From a virus, in the IMG/VR virus record IMGVR_UViG_3300044729_001513, positions 1-20,647 of that record: a DNA stretch of 20,647 nucleotides. One strand, given 5' to 3'. The notes under the pieces are model-generated. The model ran no database searches. It saw nothing but the letters and a program-made list of their open reading frames with translations, and had not been told where the DNA came from. Every line of letters begins with the position of its first letter. The stretch's first letter is position 1. Positions 6,825-14,957 of this stretch are shown here, in pieces. Position numbers and translations under genes: made by a program.

Positions 6825-7259
6825 TTAGCTTTGGTCTGCTTTATATGCATCTAGTGTTTTCTTGAACTTTCCCGCATGTGAGCGTTCTGCTTTTGCAAGT
6901 GTTTCAAACCAGTCTGCAATTTCATCAAAGCCTTCTTCACGGGCTGTCTTAGCCATACCTGGATACATATCGGTATATTCGTGTGTTTCACCTTCGATAG
7001 CAGATTCAAGAGCCTCTGCAATACTGTTAACCTGCATTCCTGTTGCAGGATCGCCAGCGGAACCATTTAACAGATACTCCATATGACCGTGTGCATGTCC
7101 GGTTTCACCTTCTGCTGTGTGACGGAATACCGCAGCAACTTCTGGTGAGCCTTCAATATCGGCCATGTTTGCAAAATAAAGATAACGACGATTTGCTTGT
7201 GATTCACCTGCAAATGCTTCTTTCAAATTCAATTCAGTTTTAGTTCCTTTGACGTTCAT
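6825..7259 (-). CDS. Rubrerythrin (ferritin-like diiron protein, no rubredoxin domain)
   Basis: 144 residues forming one four-helix ferritin-like domain. Candidate diiron ligands are visible: Glu19 ([10 protein letters not shown]), Glu52 with His55 ([10 protein letters not shown]), Glu91/Glu94 (EGETHEY) and Glu125 with His128 ([10 protein letters not shown]). Rubrerythrins reduce peroxide with a diiron centre. The C-terminal Cys4 rubredoxin domain of classical members is absent, so an external electron donor would be needed. SD AGGAG precedes the ATG. The gene starts 15 bp after pqqA, and no terminator separates them, so both are likely on one transcript from the promoter at 7.4 kb. As a phage gene it is an auxiliary gene for oxidative stress, by inference. 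Confidence 0.88.
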
Positions 7260-7274
7260 TGTTTCTCCTAATTA

Positions 7275-7349
7275 TTAACGATTAGCGATATAAAGAGTGA
7301 TTTCAAACCCAAAACGCATATCAGTTGCTTGTGGTGTCATCCAAGTCAT
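7275..7349 (-). CDS. pqqA: PqqA-like coenzyme PQQ precursor peptide
   Basis: 24 codons, ATG 7347-7349 to TAA 7275-7277, with SD AAGGAG 6 nt upstream. The peptide begins MTWMTP, has DMRFGF and ends EITLYIANR. PqqA peptides typically read M(x)W..P...D.R.GFEVT.Y.(A/S)NR, and the obligatory Glu and Tyr that become PQQ are spaced Glu-x3-Tyr; here Glu16-x3-Tyr20. Length (PqqA is about 22-29 residues) and the NR end also fit. In bacteria PqqE (with chaperone PqqD) crosslinks this Glu and Tyr, and PqqF/G, PqqB and PqqC finish the cofactor. None of these is in the window, so host enzymes would be needed. The gene has its own strong promoter and is followed by rubrerythrin. Confidence 0.85.
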   Translation of the reverse strand: MTWMTPQATDMRFGFEITLYIANR

Positions 7350-7361
7350 AGTAGTCTCCTT

Positions 7362-7386
7362 AAAAAATTACAGCAACGTGCTGTAA
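7362..7386 (-). promoter_or_regulatory. Palindrome plus U6 in the pqqA leader
   Basis: TTACAGCA (7368-7375) and TGCTGTAA (7379-7386) are perfect inverted arms with a 3-nt loop. On the - strand they are followed by six T (7367-7362) and then the pqqA SD. With the -10 at 7397-7392 the transcript would begin at about 7385, so this is a 5'-terminal stem-loop. It could stabilise the mRNA, act as attenuator, stop read-through from the upstream oxygenase/tmRNA unit, or be a DNA operator. Confidence 0.65.
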
Positions 7387-7391
7387 CTTGA

Positions 7392-7421
7392 AGTATATAT
7401 TGACTGGATGTATTTTGTCAA
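7392..7421 (-). promoter_or_regulatory. Sigma70-type promoter for pqqA and rubrerythrin
   Basis: On the - strand the -35 is a perfect TTGACA (7421-7416). With 18 bp spacing the -10 is TATACT (7397-7392); TATATA with 16 bp spacing is an alternative. It lies in the 119-bp gap between the oxygenase stop and pqqA. The same gap also has a palindrome ACCAAT-4-ATTGGT (7462-7477) spanning the oxygenase stop codon. Confidence 0.75.
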
Positions 7422-7468
7422 GTAGAGAAAATCATGATAATTGTCTACTGATAAAATGAATACCAATA

Positions 7469-8152
7469 TTAATTGGTTTTATACAGTTCTCTCACCATAT
7501 CACAGTCATTGAAATCTAGTGAAAGTAAAATTCTTGGATATGGAACACCAGGCTCAGTATCATAGACTCGGTGTGGAATATTATATTTAAACAATAGAGG
7601 GCGATCAAATACAAAAGAGGTAATTTCAGATTCTACATCACACATTCTATAGATACCAGTTTCATTCTTCGAAACAACATCTTGGCTTGGTGGTTTGTAT
7701 GGGGTTTCTCCAGTAGTCAAAAGATTAACAGCATCAGGTTTCATCTTGTACATTGTTGTAGTTGTACCAGGTAAACACTGATATATTGGCCAATTAATTC
7801 TATAATCTATTTCACTTATCGATGCATCAGAATGAAGTCCTAGACGAAAACCAGAACCATCTCCTGCTGTTATAACGAGTACTGAGCATGAAATTACTTC
7901 AACACCTAACTTATCTAATGCTGCTTTTAGATCAGGACATCTTTCAAAAACTTCTTCATAATTCAAATAATTCCAAAGTAAACCATGTTCTAACACATCA
8001 TACTTTCTTTGACCTGGTCGTGTCGGATGAAAAGTGAAAAGAACATCATTATTAGGAAGAATATTTAAGTACAATTCATTGAGCATCAAATGCTCAAGTT
8101 GTTTTGTAATGTCAAGATGATTTTCTATATCTAAAAATTTATATGGTACCAT
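7469..8152 (-). CDS. Putative 2OG-Fe(II) dioxygenase
   Basis: 227 residues from ATG 8150-8152 (MVPYKFLDIENH). A longer frame to 8227 exists but would run through the tmRNA tag region, so I reject it. The iron-binding triad is visible: GLHSDA (His107, Asp109) and IPHRVYD (His194), with Arg207 in YPRILLSLDF positioned for 2-oxoglutarate. The INWPIYQC segment is common in marine-phage members of this fold. The substrate is unknown; family members hydroxylate proteins, nucleobases or small molecules. The SD is weak, so it may be translated at a low level or from RNA processed at the tmRNA. It is one of four oxygenase-like genes here and lies between tmRNA and pqqA. Confidence 0.7.
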   Translation of the reverse strand: MVPYKFLDIENHLDITKQLEHLMLNELYLNILPNNDVLFTFHPTRPGQRKYDVLEHGLLWNYLNYEEVFERCPDLKAALDKLGVEVISCSVLVITAGDGSGFRLGLHSDASISEIDYRINWPIYQCLPGTTTTMYKMKPDAVNLLTTGETPYKPPSQDVVSKNETGIYRMCDVESEITSFVFDRPLLFKYNIPHRVYDTEPGVPYPRILLSLDFNDCDMVRELYKTN

Positions 8153-8223
8153 AATAATTTGTGATGTTAATAGTAAGCCAGTTGATTGAGTAATAAGGAC
8201 AACTGGTAAAACCTCATCTAGCC

Positions 8224-8256
8224 TCAAGCGGCTAGAGCGTAACTTTCATCGTTTGC
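8224..8256 (-). other. tmRNA tag reading frame (ANDESYALAA)
   Basis: Resume codon GCA at 8256-8254, then codons for N D E S Y A L A A and TGA at 8226-8224. The tag closely resembles gamma/betaproteobacterial tags (E. coli ANDENYALAA). The ALAA end is the ClpXP/ClpAP recognition signal. It is preceded by AGTAACT, the kind of upstream context that sets the resume codon. Confidence 0.9.
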
Positions 8257-8341
8257 AGTTACTAGTTTTGCTTGATTTACGGTCATCGCCTACCGTGTTG
8301 CCGTCTCCGTTAGCTCACCCTGTCGAAACCATGTCTGGCCC

Positions 8342-8428
8342 ATCAGAAGTGTCCTGCTGTTCACAGGTCGGGAATTCCAATCCTCAGAGTCTTGTTAAAC
8401 TCTTACATATCACCCTAAACAACACTTC
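8342..8428 (-). other. Intervening segment between the two tmRNA pieces
   Basis: 87 nt lie between the CCA end and the 5' G of the coding piece. ACACTTCTG (8422-8430) and CAGAAGTGT (8344-8352) are perfect 9-bp inverted repeats that flank it and overlap the CCA, extending the acceptor stem into a long clamp. This would hold the precursor together for RNase P cleavage at 8341 and 3' trimming at 8429. No gene is seen in it. Confidence 0.75.
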
Positions 8429-8498
8429 TGGTGGACCAGGTGGGAGTCGAACCCACGTCCAGAATGCCTTCACTTTGAAGGATATACAACAATTTTAG

Positions 8499-8621
8499 TT
8501 ACTTGAATGGCCAATTATTTATGATGATGACTATCGTAAACATCAACCAAGCAACTCTTAGTACATTATCAAATGCTCTTTCGAATTTATCCAGTAATGT
8601 TTTTTTATGCGTATCTGACAT
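8499..8621 (-). CDS. Small tail-anchored membrane protein, unknown function
   Basis: 40 residues. The first 20 are charged (MSDTHKKTLLDKFERAFDNV) and are followed by one hydrophobic helix (WLMFTIVIIIN) and a short WPFK tail. ATG 8619-8621 has an SD (GGAG) 5 nt upstream and overlaps the end of the upstream small gene by 17 nt in another frame. It ends 7 nt before the acceptor piece of the tmRNA. No family recognised. A holin-like or inhibitor role is possible but unsupported. Confidence 0.6.
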   Translation of the reverse strand: MSDTHKKTLLDKFERAFDNVLRVAWLMFTIVIIINNWPFK

Positions 8622-8737: not shown

Positions 8738-9396
8738 GATTTATTTTGGTTATAATACTTGATAACGTCAACCAAACCATTCAAATGATCGGATGTTTTC
8801 TCTTGAAAAATGATAGGTGAAGAATCTTTGACTGCAATGATAATCACAAGATTATCTATAGGAGTACCAATCAGTTCTTCATACATTAAAGCATATGCTG
8901 TAGTTTGCCAAAAATAGTCTAGTACGTCATCTCTTTTCTTTGGTCTTGCAGAGGTCTTAAAATCAATTACAGAGAGTTTACCATCATACTCTGCAATACA
9001 ATCTACTCTACCAGCCATACCTACTGCTTTAGACCACAACGCTTGCTCTTGATAATGAATGTTGTTTATCTTGTTCAGATAGGGTTTTATTGAGAGAAAA
9101 AACTCAACAGCATCAGGCATCACACCTTTCATGTAATCCTGTTTATTATTTAGATAGTTCTCACAGATAGTATGTACATTAGTGCCACGGGAAGTAGCTT
9201 GTTTGGAGATACGATTGGCTTCTTCTTCACCAACTCTGGCTCTCCATTCCATAATAGCTTTTTTCTTTTTGGCACCAACAACAGTAGTTACTGATGGTAG
9301 CTTAGTACCATCAGGCAACTTATAGTATCTTTTACCGTCAGGAAAAGTTTCTGATTGTAGGTCTTGTAGTTCTTTAGGTGGGCAATAGTTAAACAT
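8734..9396 (-). CDS. PD-(D/E)XK exonuclease (RecB/MGME1-like)
   Basis: 220 residues. The nuclease core reads: SRGTNVHTICENYL (the RGT..H motif, about residues 69-82), QALWSKAVGMAGRVDCIAEYDGKL in pieces with the active-site Asp of GRVD, VIDFKTS (the D-x-K part of the motif), and a QTTAYALMYEE helix with conserved Gln/Tyr. This matches the small RecB-like exonucleases of marine T4-like phages, which resemble mitochondrial MGME1 and process ssDNA ends or flaps. It likely acts in phage DNA replication or host DNA degradation. The ATG overlaps the preceding stop (TAATG). Confidence 0.82.
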   Translation of the reverse strand: MFNYCPPKELQDLQSETFPDGKRYYKLPDGTKLPSVTTVVGAKKKKAIMEWRARVGEEEANRISKQATSRGTNVHTICENYLNNKQDYMKGVMPDAVEFFLSIKPYLNKINNIHYQEQALWSKAVGMAGRVDCIAEYDGKLSVIDFKTSARPKKRDDVLDYFWQTTAYALMYEELIGTPIDNLVIIIAVKDSSPIIFQEKTSDHLNGLVDVIKYYNQNKS

Positions 9397-10010
9397 TATT
9401 TAAATCCAGGACCACCAACCCACAACACTAACGAACGGCGAATGCCTCTAGTGACTGGTGTAACACGATGTAATGTCCATGATGGGAAGAACCATGCACG
9501 ACCTCTTTTCTGTTCTACGGTTCTAATGTCATCAGAACCATATTTGACTTGTAATTCTCCGCCTTCAAATTCTGAAGTATCACTGAGCATAAGACACATT
9601 GATAATTTTCGAAAAGGTGTATCGCTACCAGCTAGACTTGTATCTGTGTGCCAATCATAATGTCCTTGATCATATTGTGTATATGAACCAAGTTGTGCTA
9701 GTTCATAACAACCAGTCAAATCAAACTGAAAAAACTGGCGATTGGCTGACCAAATCGCATTCGTCATCTTTTCCCAGATGTGATGATTGTTTTTATCAAC
9801 ACCCATCCAACCAATGTTTGTTCTTCGTTTTTCTTGATTGACTTGACCTTCTCCGCCATATCCTACTTGTGCAGCCTTTTGATCATGCCATTCGGGACGA
9901 GAGAGGATATAATTGATATCATCATCAGAGAGAAAACCTTCCCAATAACAAACATCATCTTTTCCTGGTGCATTGAAGGGCGCAATAGGATATACCAAAT
10001 TATGTAACAT
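9396..10010 (-). CDS. 2OG-Fe(II) oxygenase, prolyl-hydroxylase-like
   Basis: 204 residues from ATG 10008-10010; a TTG further upstream (10037) would overlap the previous gene and is less likely. His121-x-Asp123 in YDWHTDT, distal His181 in LHRVTPV and an Arg at 191/192 (GIRRSLVLWV) complete the Fe/2OG site. FEGGELQV and RGRAWFFPSWTLH are typical of the PiuC/PKHD-type group. The reaction would be hydroxylation of an unknown substrate. It follows the previous oxygenase by 7 nt, suggesting the two work in one transcript. Common in marine T4-like phages, where the role is not established as far as I know. Confidence 0.85.
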   Translation of the reverse strand: MLHNLVYPIAPFNAPGKDDVCYWEGFLSDDDINYILSRPEWHDQKAAQVGYGGEGQVNQEKRRTNIGWMGVDKNNHHIWEKMTNAIWSANRQFFQFDLTGCYELAQLGSYTQYDQGHYDWHTDTSLAGSDTPFRKLSMCLMLSDTSEFEGGELQVKYGSDDIRTVEQKRGRAWFFPSWTLHRVTPVTRGIRRSLVLWVGGPGFK

Positions 10011-10017
10011 TTTTATC

Positions 10018-10611
10018 TCACTTTCTATACATATCAATCATACGATTTCTTACAAATGGGTGTTGTCCATCCCATCTTTTATCTCCAGCAAACTCTGGAT
10101 ATGGTCCATTTGCACGAACAAAGTGACAGAATACTTGTCCAGAATAGTAATCATTAGGTCCATCACATGGTTTTCTCCAGTGTAATAGATCACATCCTTT
10201 GTATACAACACCATCACCTTCTGCTAAATCATAACGATGACCTGCCATGTATATAGGCCATGAATAATGATGGGAACGACCTAGCTGTATTGTAACAGAT
10301 ATCTCACATGAAGGTCTATCAGAATGTATCTTTAACTCATCACCATTGCCATATAAACGAGAATATGAATAGGTAGGAATGAGTTCTTCTTCTAGTGCAT
10401 TTTCAAGCTTTGGCCATACCATTTCTAGGATGGTTTCAGTTGCCATCTCACCATGTCCTGCTGCTTTTGAATTTGGTATTTGTGGATCGCCACCTACTCC
10501 CATTGCACCTTTGACGGCAAGTAGGTGGGTTACGAATTTAGATACTTCAAGGGGTACTAGATTTTGAAAATATAATACACCTTTACTGTTGAAATACTCA
10601 CGGGCACTCAT
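10018..10611 (-). CDS. 2OG-Fe(II) oxygenase-like protein
   Basis: 197 residues. ELKIHSDRPSCEISVTIQLG gives His96-x-Asp98; DLLHWRKPCDGPNDYYSGQVFCHF gives distal His144, and the usual Arg seems replaced or displaced. YSYSRLYGNGDELKIHSD is a motif frequent in phage oxygenases of this fold. SD GAAAGGTGA precedes ATG 10609-10611. The 43-bp gap to the upstream gene is very AT-rich with no clear terminator. Substrate unknown; it is encoded directly before another oxygenase. Confidence 0.75.
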   Translation of the reverse strand: MSAREYFNSKGVLYFQNLVPLEVSKFVTHLLAVKGAMGVGGDPQIPNSKAAGHGEMATETILEMVWPKLENALEEELIPTYSYSRLYGNGDELKIHSDRPSCEISVTIQLGRSHHYSWPIYMAGHRYDLAEGDGVVYKGCDLLHWRKPCDGPNDYYSGQVFCHFVRANGPYPEFAGDKRWDGQHPFVRNRMIDMYRK

Positions 10612-12388: not shown

Positions 12389-12636
12389 ATTGTCATATCA
12401 GCGGGTTTATCATTAATGATTGCAGTAGAGGTCACTCTATCTATTTCGAGATGTCCATGACAAACAATGTTCCAGTGTTGACCATCTTCTTCAGTCTCAC
12501 CTTTACAAGGCACATTGATTGTCACATTTTTGAAAAGATATTCTCTATCGTTTTCAAACACTCTCCAAACATGGTCAGCAGTACCTCTGCCTGGATTTCC
12601 TCTTGTGTGATTGAATCGTATCTTATATTTATTCAT
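12367..12636 (-). CDS. Conserved phage protein of unknown function
   Basis: 89 residues, beta-rich by appearance. GRGTADHVWRVFENDREYLFKNVTIN (in pieces) and NIVCHGHLEIDR are its distinctive segments; there are two Cys and several His but no recognised metal motif. Similar small ORFs accompany PhoH in marine T4-like phages, from memory. ATG overlaps the oxygenase stop (ATGA). Confidence 0.6.
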   Translation of the reverse strand: MNKYKIRFNHTRGNPGRGTADHVWRVFENDREYLFKNVTINVPCKGETEEDGQHWNIVCHGHLEIDRVTSTAIINDKPADMTICQLTNS

Positions 12637-13286
12637 ATGATGATTGGCTCAGGTGGCGGGCAATAGTTTTGAATTCTTCCTACGCCTAGATTGAAGTGGA
12701 TAAAAGTAAATGGATTGTCATTTGCATTTCTAGTAAACCCATGAGGTAACCATGAGTTGGTGAAAAACATCATTCCTGGTGTAGGTTTGAAATAGGTAGC
12801 GATATTAGCATAGGTCAATTCATTCATATCTTTTGGATACATGTTGATTTGACGCTTTGCTGGTCGTGGGTCATGTACAACAAACTGACAAGAGTTTTCT
12901 GGCACATCTATAAAATATAAACCTGTCAATTGATGACCAAAGCCATGCACATGCTCATCATGTCCAGAATACTTCTCATGTTCTTGACACCAGAATTCTT
13001 TACATACAACAGTCCAACCTTCCATATTGAACCCTTGTGATTCTAGAATATTATATCCTGTACCAGTGATATACTCAATCATTGGATAGATTCTAGGATC
13101 ATCCATGTACTCTGTCATGTGTACAGGATACACAGGATTACATTCTGTCTTTTGTTTTTTAGTTTTGGCAAGATAAGCATAAGAAACTTCTTTTGCTATC
13201 TCAAGATATTCTGGTCTGTGTATCCAATAGACATTGGAAGGAAAAAGACTTTGTACGCTCAATTCATTGTTCATTTGTTCTTCCAT
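12633..13286 (-). CDS. 2OG-Fe(II) oxygenase-like protein (TIGR02466-like)
   Basis: 217 residues if ATG 13284-13286 is used; ATG 13272-13274 (residue 5) has a better SD (GGAAG) and is a good alternative. EHVHGFGHQLTGLYFIDVPE (His112, His114) and VVHDPRP match the 'H.H....LSG.YY...P....DPR' layout of a family of putative 2OG-Fe oxygenases. Distal His182 lies in WLPHGFTRN, and FTFIHFNLG closes the barrel. The first metal motif reads H-x-H rather than H-x-D, so activity is less certain. It is the first gene after the perfect promoter at 13.3 kb and leads the oxygenase - small ORFs - PhoH unit. Confidence 0.65.
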   Translation of the reverse strand: MEEQMNNELSVQSLFPSNVYWIHRPEYLEIAKEVSYAYLAKTKKQKTECNPVYPVHMTEYMDDPRIYPMIEYITGTGYNILESQGFNMEGWTVVCKEFWCQEHEKYSGHDEHVHGFGHQLTGLYFIDVPENSCQFVVHDPRPAKRQINMYPKDMNELTYANIATYFKPTPGMMFFTNSWLPHGFTRNANDNPFTFIHFNLGVGRIQNYCPPPEPIII

Positions 13287-13343: not shown

Positions 13344-14051
13344 TTAGTTCCAGTATTTTGAGTAGTCAATATTCTTCCAATATTGTTCGTTGTTGCGATA
13401 CCAGAAGTTCTTGATGAGGTAGTAAGTCATACCAAAATAACCCATTCTTTTAAATCGTCTGCTATCCTGACCCAAGTAATGATTGGCTATTCTAAATTTC
13501 TTTGGATCATATTGTTTAGATAAAAAGAAATCTTCACTTGTACCATACTTTTCTCCAAACCCGCCATACTCCCAAAACTTATCCGTTCTAGTCAACATAA
13601 AAGCACCAACAGCAAACGGTGACCAATATTTCAGAATACTATTGATACCATTGAATATCATGAAACCTATCTGTGTTCTAAGGTCACCATCATAGCATTT
13701 GATATTCAACCCAATCAAATCTAAGTTTTCTTTTTGTATTGTATCAACACAATCATGTATCACAGATTCATTAAAGAATCTAACATCACTATCTATAAAC
13801 AGTATATACGGCGTTGTCACAAGTCTAGCACCATTGTTCTTTGCTGTAGATACAGGACCACCTTCAATGATCTCTACATTCAAGCTACCTTTGCTGGCTT
13901 CTATAACTTCTCTTGTTTTGTCTGTAGATGCATCAGCAATGATAACTCTGGTGTTACCTATGTTTTGTTTTTTCAAATGTTCCAATAAATGATGAATGTA
14001 ATCTTCCTCATTCTTGCAAGGAACTACTATTGTGATTATACTTTCTGACAT
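13344..14051 (-). CDS. Family 2 glycosyltransferase
   Basis: 235 residues with a GT-A fold: IITIVVPCKNEEDYI (5-19) at the start of the Rossmann-like domain, VIIADASTDKTREVI (36-50), FIDSDVRF with the metal-binding Asp87-x-Asp89, and GTSEDFFLSKQ as the catalytic ED region. A hydrophobic stretch (QIGFMIFNGINSILKYW, SPFAVGAFML) may touch the membrane. It would transfer a sugar from a nucleotide sugar to an unknown acceptor (surface glycan, lipid or DNA base). The last tract is aromatic/basic. ATG 14049-14051 has SD GAAGG and overlaps the small gene upstream by 16 nt. Confidence 0.85.
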   Translation of the reverse strand: MSESIITIVVPCKNEEDYIHHLLEHLKKQNIGNTRVIIADASTDKTREVIEASKGSLNVEIIEGGPVSTAKNNGARLVTTPYILFIDSDVRFFNESVIHDCVDTIQKENLDLIGLNIKCYDGDLRTQIGFMIFNGINSILKYWSPFAVGAFMLTRTDKFWEYGGFGEKYGTSEDFFLSKQYDPKKFRIANHYLGQDSRRFKRMGYFGMTYYLIKNFWYRNNEQYWKNIDYSKYWN

Positions 14052-14206
14052 TTACCTTCAACCTTAAAACTATCAAACTTCAACCAATATGTCATAGACT
14101 GTAGAACCTGCTCACATTGTTGTTGTGTCTGAAATTGTAAATTAATTTTTCCTGGTATGTCGTTTGGATTGTTTATATGAACCGCTATCAATATCATCAA
14201 CCACAT
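14036..14206 (-). CDS. Nested small secreted-type protein, unknown function
   Basis: 56 residues from ATG 14204-14206, with SD AGGAG 7 nt upstream. It begins with a short hydrophobic stretch (MWLMILIAVH), then INNPNDIPGKINLQF, a TQQQCEQVLQSMTYWLKFDSF helix in pieces, and VEGKC near the end. Two Cys (31 and 53) could form a disulfide in the periplasm. It overlaps the phosphoesterase end by 65 nt and the glycosyltransferase start by 16 nt in other frames. The good SD, codon-level sense and Cys pair make it likely real; no function known. Confidence 0.6.
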   Translation of the reverse strand: MWLMILIAVHINNPNDIPGKINLQFQTQQQCEQVLQSMTYWLKFDSFKVEGKCQKV

Positions 14207-14957
14207 TATCGCTCTCCTGTGTCCATGTTACTATTTCCCATCGGCCATCATGATGCTCAACAAGTGCAGTCAACGATTCAACCCAATCACCATCATTCAT
14301 ATAAGTTACACCATCAATCTCTTTAATCTCTGCATGATGTATATGCCCACAAATTACTCCATCATATCCTTTCTTCTTACAATAACCTGCTAAGTTTTTT
14401 TCAAACTGAAACATAAAGTCTACTGCTTTCTTTACCTTGTGCTTAAGGAAACCAGAAAGGCTCCAATAATTAAAACCAATTCTATGTAAGAACCAATTAA
14501 GTCTATTATTAACTGATAAGATGAAGTCATACGCCCTGTCTCCTAAAAATGATAACCATGGTGCTAATCTTGTGATACCATCAAACAAATCACCATGAAC
14601 CACAAGATAATGTTTCCCATCAGCACCGACATGTTCACATTGATTAGTGAGTTCAACCATTCCAAATCCAAGACCATAATGAAGATAAGGTCGTAGAAAT
14701 TCATCGTGATTTCCTAGTACATAAACTACTCTGGTTCCTCTTTTAGCGTGTCCTAGAACTCTGCGGACAACATTGGTATGACTTTGTTTCCAACGCCATT
14801 TGTTTTGTTTGATTTTCCATGCGTCAATGATATCACCAACAAGATATAATGTTTCGCATGTATTATGTTTGAGGAAATTATTGAGTGCTTCAGCCTTGCA
14901 ATCTTTTGTTCCAAGGTGAACGTCTGAAATGAAGATACTACGGTAAGTCTTTTGCAT
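14142..14957 (-). CDS. LpxH-like metallophosphoesterase (UDP-2,3-diacylglucosamine hydrolase family)
   Basis: 271 residues. The calcineurin-like motifs are in order: SDVHLG (Asp12, His14), VGDIIDAW (Asp42), GNHDE (Asn83, His84), VVHGDLFD and CGHIHHAEI. The insert (GDRAYDFILSVNNRLNWFLHRIG in pieces) and the tight match to COG2908 point to the LpxH-like group, which cleaves UDP-2,3-diacylglucosamine in lipid A synthesis; related proteins act on other pyrophosphates. In a phage it may alter lipid A supply or nucleotides. The C-terminal 30 residues are polar and overlap the small gene downstream. SD AAGGT precedes the ATG weakly. Substrate is inferred. Confidence 0.8.
   Translation of the reverse strand: MQKTYRSIFISDVHLGTKDCKAEALNNFLKHNTCETLYLVGDIIDAWKIKQNKWRWKQSHTNVVRRVLGHAKRGTRVVYVLGNHDEFLRPYLHYGLGFGMVELTNQCEHVGADGKHYLVVHGDLFDGITRLAPWLSFLGDRAYDFILSVNNRLNWFLHRIGFNYWSLSGFLKHKVKKAVDFMFQFEKNLAGYCKKKGYDGVICGHIHHAEIKEIDGVTYMNDGDWVESLTALVEHHDGRWEIVTWTQESDNVVDDIDSGSYKQSKRHTRKN

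Follow-up and report, generated by a model that had tools for sequence, protein, structure and literature searches.

A phage-borne pqqA gene, a likely supplier of PQQ precursor, and the putative host-type operator in its promoter

The question raised by this locus is whether a reading frame of only 24 codons within phage DNA is a true gene for the PQQ precursor peptide PqqA and, if so, what a phage might gain from it. A reading made from sequence alone had placed a pqqA gene at positions 7275–7349 of the window, by which we mean the whole stretch of DNA analysed (20,647 nucleotides; IMG/VR record IMGVR_UViG_3300044729_001513). The ORF at 7275..7349 belongs to the PqqA family. The coordinates were right, but the strand had been left unstated: the 24 codons run on the minus strand (7349..7275) and encode the peptide MTWMTPQATDMRFGFEITLYIANR, whereas the plus-strand reading of the same positions is unrelated to PqqA. 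An HMM search with the family models, the check proposed along with that reading, matched MTWMTPQATDMRFGFEITLYIANR to Pfam PF08042 (E 8.1e-8; 32.5 bits with a cut-off of 21.1; 19 of 19 model positions) and to NCBIfam TIGR02107 (E 3.1e-8; 33.3 bits with a cut-off of 20; 21 of 21 positions), and a lack of any PqqA match, which would have refuted the assignment, did not occur. All motifs that had been listed for the 24 residues were found, namely Glu16-x3-Tyr20, W3..P6, the core D10-M-R12-x-G14-F15-E16 and the terminal N23-R24. Only one place in the whole record exceeded the cut-off of the PqqA profile search, compared with none in 14 control genomes, and a strict PqqA regular expression gave a single match in the window, whereas 200 shuffles gave none. 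The locus comprises the following elements.

7275..7349, minus strand: pqqA, gene for the PqqA precursor peptide, above the curated cut-offs of PF08042 and TIGR02107, with dN/dS 0.127; the pair to be cross-linked is Glu16 plus Tyr20
6825..7259, minus strand: rubrerythrin-like gene (PF02915, E 1.4e-26) with its own Shine-Dalgarno sequence, a few bases past the pqqA stop codon
6466..6735, minus strand: conserved phage gene that follows in the array and encodes an 89-amino-acid protein without known function, with relatives in 280 viral stretches
7356..7361, minus strand: Shine-Dalgarno sequence AAGGAG, 6 nt before the pqqA ATG
7365..7389, minus strand: leader hairpin between promoter and Shine-Dalgarno sequence (−11.2 kcal/mol on its own, z −4.4)
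7392..7421, minus strand: σ70-type promoter TTGACA-N18-TATACT with 11 of 12 consensus bases, conserved in close relatives
7423..7437, minus strand: PQQ box TCATGATTTTCTCTA with a perfect left half-site and 8 of 10 conserved bases, starting 88 nt before the ATG and ending one base before the −35 hexamer

The window is a fragment of a T4-like phage, with genes for a gp32-type ssDNA-binding protein, PhoH and a phage exonuclease around pqqA, as the initial reading had it. Location of this host-type metabolic gene within genuine phage genomes extends to isolated phages and to contigs of up to 356 kb. The transcription unit is laid out as promoter, Shine-Dalgarno sequence, pqqA and rubrerythrin, the last being probably co-transcribed with pqqA and possibly serving in protection against peroxide or iron. 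The order pqqA–rubrerythrin–89-amino-acid gene is kept in close relatives, and many relatives have pqqA upstream of the 89-amino-acid gene. Relatives of the rubrerythrin occur in about 400 viral stretches, often near pqqA, and one is present in Pelagibacter phage Mosig. No pqqB–E genes were seen in the window, and neither a PQQ alcohol/methanol dehydrogenase nor a PqqE above the cut-off was found in the 27 related records tested. Reliance on host enzymes, which had been deduced from the window alone, is compatible with these results and with the presence of PqqE in the candidate host groups. PqqE-like matches in four phage contigs turned out to be other radical-SAM proteins, far below the cut-off and at levels equalled in control genomes.

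Several further features of the window were recorded. A permuted tmRNA is encoded at 8162–8542 on the minus strand (Rfam beta_tmRNA, 154.9 bits) with the predicted tag ANDESYALAA. The gene at 9396–10037 (minus strand) matches Fe2+-dependent PKHD-type dioxygenases below the cut-off, and those at 7469–8152, 10018–10611 and 12633–13286 were judged by eye to be of the 2OG-Fe(II) oxygenase type. A weak match to the UDP-2,3-diacylglucosamine diphosphatase LpxH, again below the cut-off, was obtained for 14142–14957 (minus strand), which adjoins a gene that looks glycosyltransferase-like by eye (13344–14051).

Conservation of the peptide points to a working gene. A dN/dS of ~0.13 (0.127) was computed among 22 distinct 24-codon homologues, which indicates purifying selection, and W3, P6, A8, D10, R12, G14, F15, E16, I17, T18, Y20 and R24 are invariant in all of them. 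Loss of Glu16 or Tyr20 in related phages had been named as an observation that would refute the assignment; instead, the Glu-x3-Tyr pair is kept in 63 of 63 related viral loci having a PqqA ORF. These loci are viral relatives that were fetched through the two neighbouring genes and scanned with a PqqA profile built in this analysis. When a locus holds both neighbour genes, pqqA is present in 19 of 24 cases; one of the five exceptions begins inside rubrerythrin and the other four represent a more distant, rearranged group. Exactly one pqqA was found in 15 of 20 long related contigs (65–356 kb), the other five being devoid of it. The 356-kb contig L036 (IMGVR_UViG_3300023174_000036), which is of jumbo-phage size, contains a single pqqA with the box-like TCAATGATTTTCACTA upstream.

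Free-standing pqqA genes were detected by a pattern scan in at least 120 IMG/VR contigs. The 120 PqqA reading frames counted there comprise 119 that are complete with a start codon and one truncated by a contig end, and nearly all have a Shine-Dalgarno sequence. Among annotated phages, tblastn returned nine Methylophilales/Methylophilaceae phage genomes (four Melnitz isolates, P19250A, MEP301, Venkman, MEP401 and MEP402) and, in addition, a PqqA peptide in the Manatee Spring podovirus. MEP431–434 and HIM624-A, which are named in the taxonomy, were not among the returns, and we do not claim that every methylophage has pqqA. When 5.8 kb of MEP301 was compared with Venkman, P19250A, MEP401/402 and the Manatee Spring virus, the DNA in common was limited to pqqA and the bases flanking it directly. 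As this is the sole DNA common to MEP301 and the other phages in that stretch, the alignment suggests that pqqA alone may have been captured or transferred repeatedly. Two matches were discarded: that to 'Acinetobacter phage MD-2021a' (L007, CAKLQF020000010.1), whose contig carries ppk and pqqA together with pqqBCDE and represents bacterial contamination in a phage collection, and that to Rhodococcus phage ReqiDocB7, a chance stretch within gp008. A broad peptide pattern with long N-runs produced no matches, although known pqqA copies ought to match it.

Genes this short had been expected to escape annotation, and most distinct phages indeed have none at the pqqA site. In Melnitz (L002, 4967–5062; QZI94433.1) and the Manatee Spring virus (L006, 2067–2195; UOF77531.1) an ORF is annotated antisense to pqqA; both are probably wrong calls that hide the true gene. 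No PHROGs profile matched pqqA, and the published descriptions of Melnitz, MEP301, the MEP401/402 group and Venkman (OM43 phages) do not mention it. With only 23–25 codons, pqqA is missed by standard gene callers and phage family libraries. A phage PqqA was nevertheless reported in 2020 for a Lake Baikal methylophage (PMC7678222), and a reservoir study lists pqqA, pqqE and pqqD among virus-encoded genes; phage auxiliary metabolic genes for PQQ are thus of a kind already known. New, as far as we have searched, are the breadth across unrelated methylophages, a Burkholderiales-type clade without methanol dehydrogenase, and a PQQ operator shared between host and phage.

The peptide itself gives a hint at the host. 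PqqA of Methylophilaceae reads ..EMRFGFEVT.Y followed by VMNK or VCNR after Tyr20, and that of Burkholderiales and Thauera follows the pattern x-W-x-T-P....DMRFGFEITMYIANR. The tail class of phage PqqA peptides matches that of their hosts, and the P19250A peptide is identical to the common Methylophilaceae form. The host peptides closest to that of the window are from Thauera and Comamonadaceae, and we take the window peptide, from its sequence, to be of the Burkholderiales/Rhodocyclales rather than the Methylophilales type. Since it is nearer to PqqA of the former groups, the host of the window phage is probably a member of the Burkholderiales or Rhodocyclales and not of the Methylophilales. 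The initial suggestion of a methylotrophic (Methylophilales) or other PQQ-using host therefore stands with respect to PQQ use but not, judged by peptide type, with respect to Methylophilales. Candidate host groups are equipped for PQQ synthesis, as a search for pqqA–E in likely hosts revealed: in one Burkholderiales family (that of one such host genome), 93 of 401 genomes have pqqA, and of 12 related host genomes 10 have a PqqE above the cut-off. A host without PQQ biosynthesis, which would have undermined the proposal, is thus not what these groups offer. The phage tmRNA is of the betaproteobacterial, permuted type; blastn of it against genomes of the Burkholderiales family and of Methylophilaceae yielded only short matches with similar scores and did not separate the two groups.

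An ideal Shine-Dalgarno sequence and a strong promoter had also been described, and the elements listed above agree with this, expression itself being inferred. The leader hairpin is supported by covariation, with 5 of 10 pairs changed on both sides in seven alignable leaders, as compared with 0–2 in slid controls. Almost all members of the clade to which the window belongs have it (mean z −2.97; 92% below −1.5), and the leaders of all viral pqqA genes average −1.72 versus −0.29 in controls (P 1.6e-14). Only the short hairpin is unusually stable; the whole leader together with pqqA does not fold more stably than shuffles (z 0.15). We infer that the hairpin probably stabilises or regulates the short pqqA message.

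Upstream of bacterial pqqA genes we found a palindrome, TMATGA-N3-TCATKA, which we call the PQQ box. It lies mostly 100–150 nt from the ATG and is rare elsewhere in host genomes; no published description of it was found in a limited literature search. Of 126 host upstream regions, 34% have at least 9 of the 10 defining bases and 23% have all 10; the corresponding figures for random segments are 1% and 0. Methylophaga has a matching variant, TCAGGAAAATCCTGA. The commoner form in hosts, TCATGA-N3-TCATGA, occurs 1–5 times per genome. In 12 host genomes, its 29 perfect sites comprise 20 before pqqA, two before pqqB, one between a PQQ methanol-family dehydrogenase gene and its moxJ-like gene, and six inside unrelated ORFs. 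As a pqqA site already known was what led to the choice of each genome, 12 of the 29 are built into the sample; pqq or dehydrogenase genes account for 11 of the other 17. In seven further hosts, 9 of 11 sites of the form TAATGA-N3-TCATTA lie 115–132 nt before pqqA. Methylophilaceae genomes (host loci L504–L532) harbour several orphan copies of pqqA, every one of them with a PQQ box, and G608 has four pqqA sites. In two Methylotenera genomes (L538, L542) a perfect TAATGA-N3-TCATTA is located between divergent genes for a pentapeptide-repeat and a glycine-zipper protein, and for this reason the box may have targets outside pqq.

A matrix trained on host sites only was then applied to the regions upstream of phage pqqA. 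With segments of the same contigs as controls, 59% of 115 phage upstream regions exceeded the 1% threshold and 30% the 0.1% threshold, with positions peaking 85–90 nt before the ATG (~88 nt). Lineages were counted by nucleotide flank clusters, as tblastx clustering lumped all viral loci into one; taking one region per cluster (18 clusters), 56% were over the 1% threshold. The Melnitz box scored 16.8 bits, and Melnitz, P19250A, MEP301 and Venkman were all above the 1% threshold; MEP401/402 had no convincing box by the host-only matrix. Three of the four occurrences of the phage form in 24 phage records are upstream of pqqA. The window box scored 12.6 bits, a value exceeded by 0.016% of control segments (P ~1.6e-4), and is the third-best matrix site in the window, the two higher-scoring places being apparently inside ORFs. 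Because the box is imperfect and two places score higher, the claim rests on its position and on the set of relatives, in which the same spot has 9 of 10 bases (L254/L256) or all 10 (L268).

Given that its promoter contains an apparent copy of the host pqqA operator, transcription of phage pqqA is probably gated by the host PQQ regulator, although binding data are lacking and both the identity of the regulator and the direction of regulation are inferred. A distance of one base from the −35 hexamer is, by inference, a usual position of an activator; against the need for one, the −35 hexamer of the window promoter is consensus as it stands. One host has the box between pqqA and a histidine kinase/LuxR-type regulator pair, and activation of the pqq operon by AgmR, a LuxR-type regulator, has been reported in Pseudomonas (PMC12997753). 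Based on this single neighbourhood and the AgmR literature, a LuxR-type response regulator of the AgmR/ErbR kind is the most likely candidate, again without binding data.

We consider it likely that the gene is a true pqqA which serves as an auxiliary metabolic gene, adding PQQ precursor under the regulator by which the host governs PQQ synthesis; that this regulator binds, that the gene is expressed and that PQQ yield rises are inferences. In the infected cell, the phage would produce extra PqqA peptide, whose Glu16 and Tyr20 would be cross-linked by host PqqD/PqqE, and host PqqF/G, PqqB and PqqC would complete PQQ. The cofactor would be loaded into periplasmic alcohol/methanol dehydrogenases of the host and keep respiration going for the phage, while the operator copy would ensure that PqqA is made when the host PQQ regulon is on. 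Supplying the precursor alone would make sense since one PqqA is used per PQQ. Cross-linking by host PqqE, a rise in PQQ and a benefit to the phage are inferences that go beyond the computed evidence, which covers assignment to the PqqA family, conservation, the phage surroundings, the absence of PqqE and methanol dehydrogenase from the tested relatives, and enrichment and position of the box. More PqqA need not yield more PQQ if host PqqE or PqqC is limiting. Overexpression of pqqAB in Acetobacter is reported to have led to higher PQQ (PMC7936290), and that source cites more PQQ upon overexpression of pqqA alone in Gluconobacter. A PQQ-producing methylotroph keeps five stand-alone pqqA copies (PMC9851590).

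Other interpretations have to be weighed. The gene might be a real pqqA whose palindrome is unconnected with PQQ control, being a box of the Fur (iron) type or some general element of promoters, with pqqA and rubrerythrin read from the phage's own promoter. The form of the box in relative L268, TAATGATAATCATTA, equals what we take to be the core of the classical Fur consensus, an iron protein is encoded next to pqqA, and the window promoter is already near consensus. Sites of a Fur box, however, should be concentrated at iron genes, and this is not the case: most of the sites in the 7 plus 12 hosts fall within ORFs or at loci for pqq or methanol dehydrogenase, and not at recognisable iron genes. 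The commoner host form is found chiefly at pqqA, pqqB and methanol dehydrogenase genes, and none of the TAATGA-N3-TCATTA sites in the seven hosts is at a recognisable iron gene, most of them preceding pqqA. Moreover, the phage box follows pqqA and not rubrerythrin, a relative of which is present in few of the at least 120 pattern-scan loci. We regard this interpretation as unlikely, though it retains some weight.

Alternatively, surplus unprocessed phage PqqA might act as a decoy that occupies PqqD/PqqE, so that less PQQ is made or periplasmic oxidation is shut down. Strong transcription of so short a peptide gene could be enough to saturate PqqD, and no phage PqqE above the cut-off was found; yet the cross-linking residues and the host-like tail are all kept under purifying selection, phage peptides match the host tail class up to identity in P19250A, and methylotrophs themselves hold several stand-alone pqqA copies, which makes a decoy very improbable. 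Even less credence is given to pqqA as passive cargo, repeatedly acquired from hosts without benefit. Such a short gene is cheap to carry, and a quarter of the long related contigs (5 of 20) do without it, but neither the low dN/dS nor the conservation of promoter, box and leader hairpin, the latter with compensatory changes, would be expected of cargo, and the gene recurs in unrelated phage groups whose compared stretches are otherwise dissimilar in DNA sequence.

If the gene does supply PQQ precursor, it is tempting to speculate, with only a slight leaning in favour, that this is a general strategy of phages on PQQ-dependent betaproteobacteria, in which pqqA and the host operator have been captured repeatedly by unrelated phages and an alcohol/methanol-sensing two-component system of the host directly tunes the phage gene in the course of infection. 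In lakes and the sea, methanol and alcohol are oxidised in large part by PQQ-dependent dehydrogenases. Should PQQ precursor be a routine contribution of phages to their hosts, one-carbon oxidation may go up instead of down in infected cells until they lyse. Peptide tail and box together represent a sequence signature that may help host prediction for uncultured phages, and the shared operator renders the hypothesis testable in cultured phage–host pairs.

Comparison with known systems brings out what is shared and what is distinct. Like the window, the Lake Baikal population VP_266 (T4-like Methylophilaceae phage; PMC7678222) has pqqA in a T4-like, low-GC freshwater phage, and the gene was proposed to raise PQQ for host methanol dehydrogenase. 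VP_266 also encodes methanol dehydrogenase, which the tested relatives of the window were not found to carry, and it is assigned to Methylophilaceae, whereas the window peptide is of the Burkholderiales/Rhodocyclales type. That report describes no operator, conservation or breadth. Stand-alone pqqA copies of Methylophilaceae (PMC9851590; Ge et al. 2015, as cited in that source) resemble the phage gene in being single, apart from pqqBCDE and equipped with their own control region, and those found in this analysis have the same palindrome. They are chromosomal, whereas the phage copies lie among phage genes and have the box nearer to the start codon (~88 versus 100–150 nt). Melnitz, P19250A, MEP301, MEP401/402 and Venkman share with the window a PqqA ORF with Glu-x3-Tyr but have Methylophilales-type peptides. 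Auxiliary metabolic genes of cyanophages such as psbA are cases in which a phage supplies a fast-consumed part of the host's energy system; pqqA of the window differs from psbA in that it encodes a cofactor precursor peptide and comes with what appears to be a borrowed host operator.
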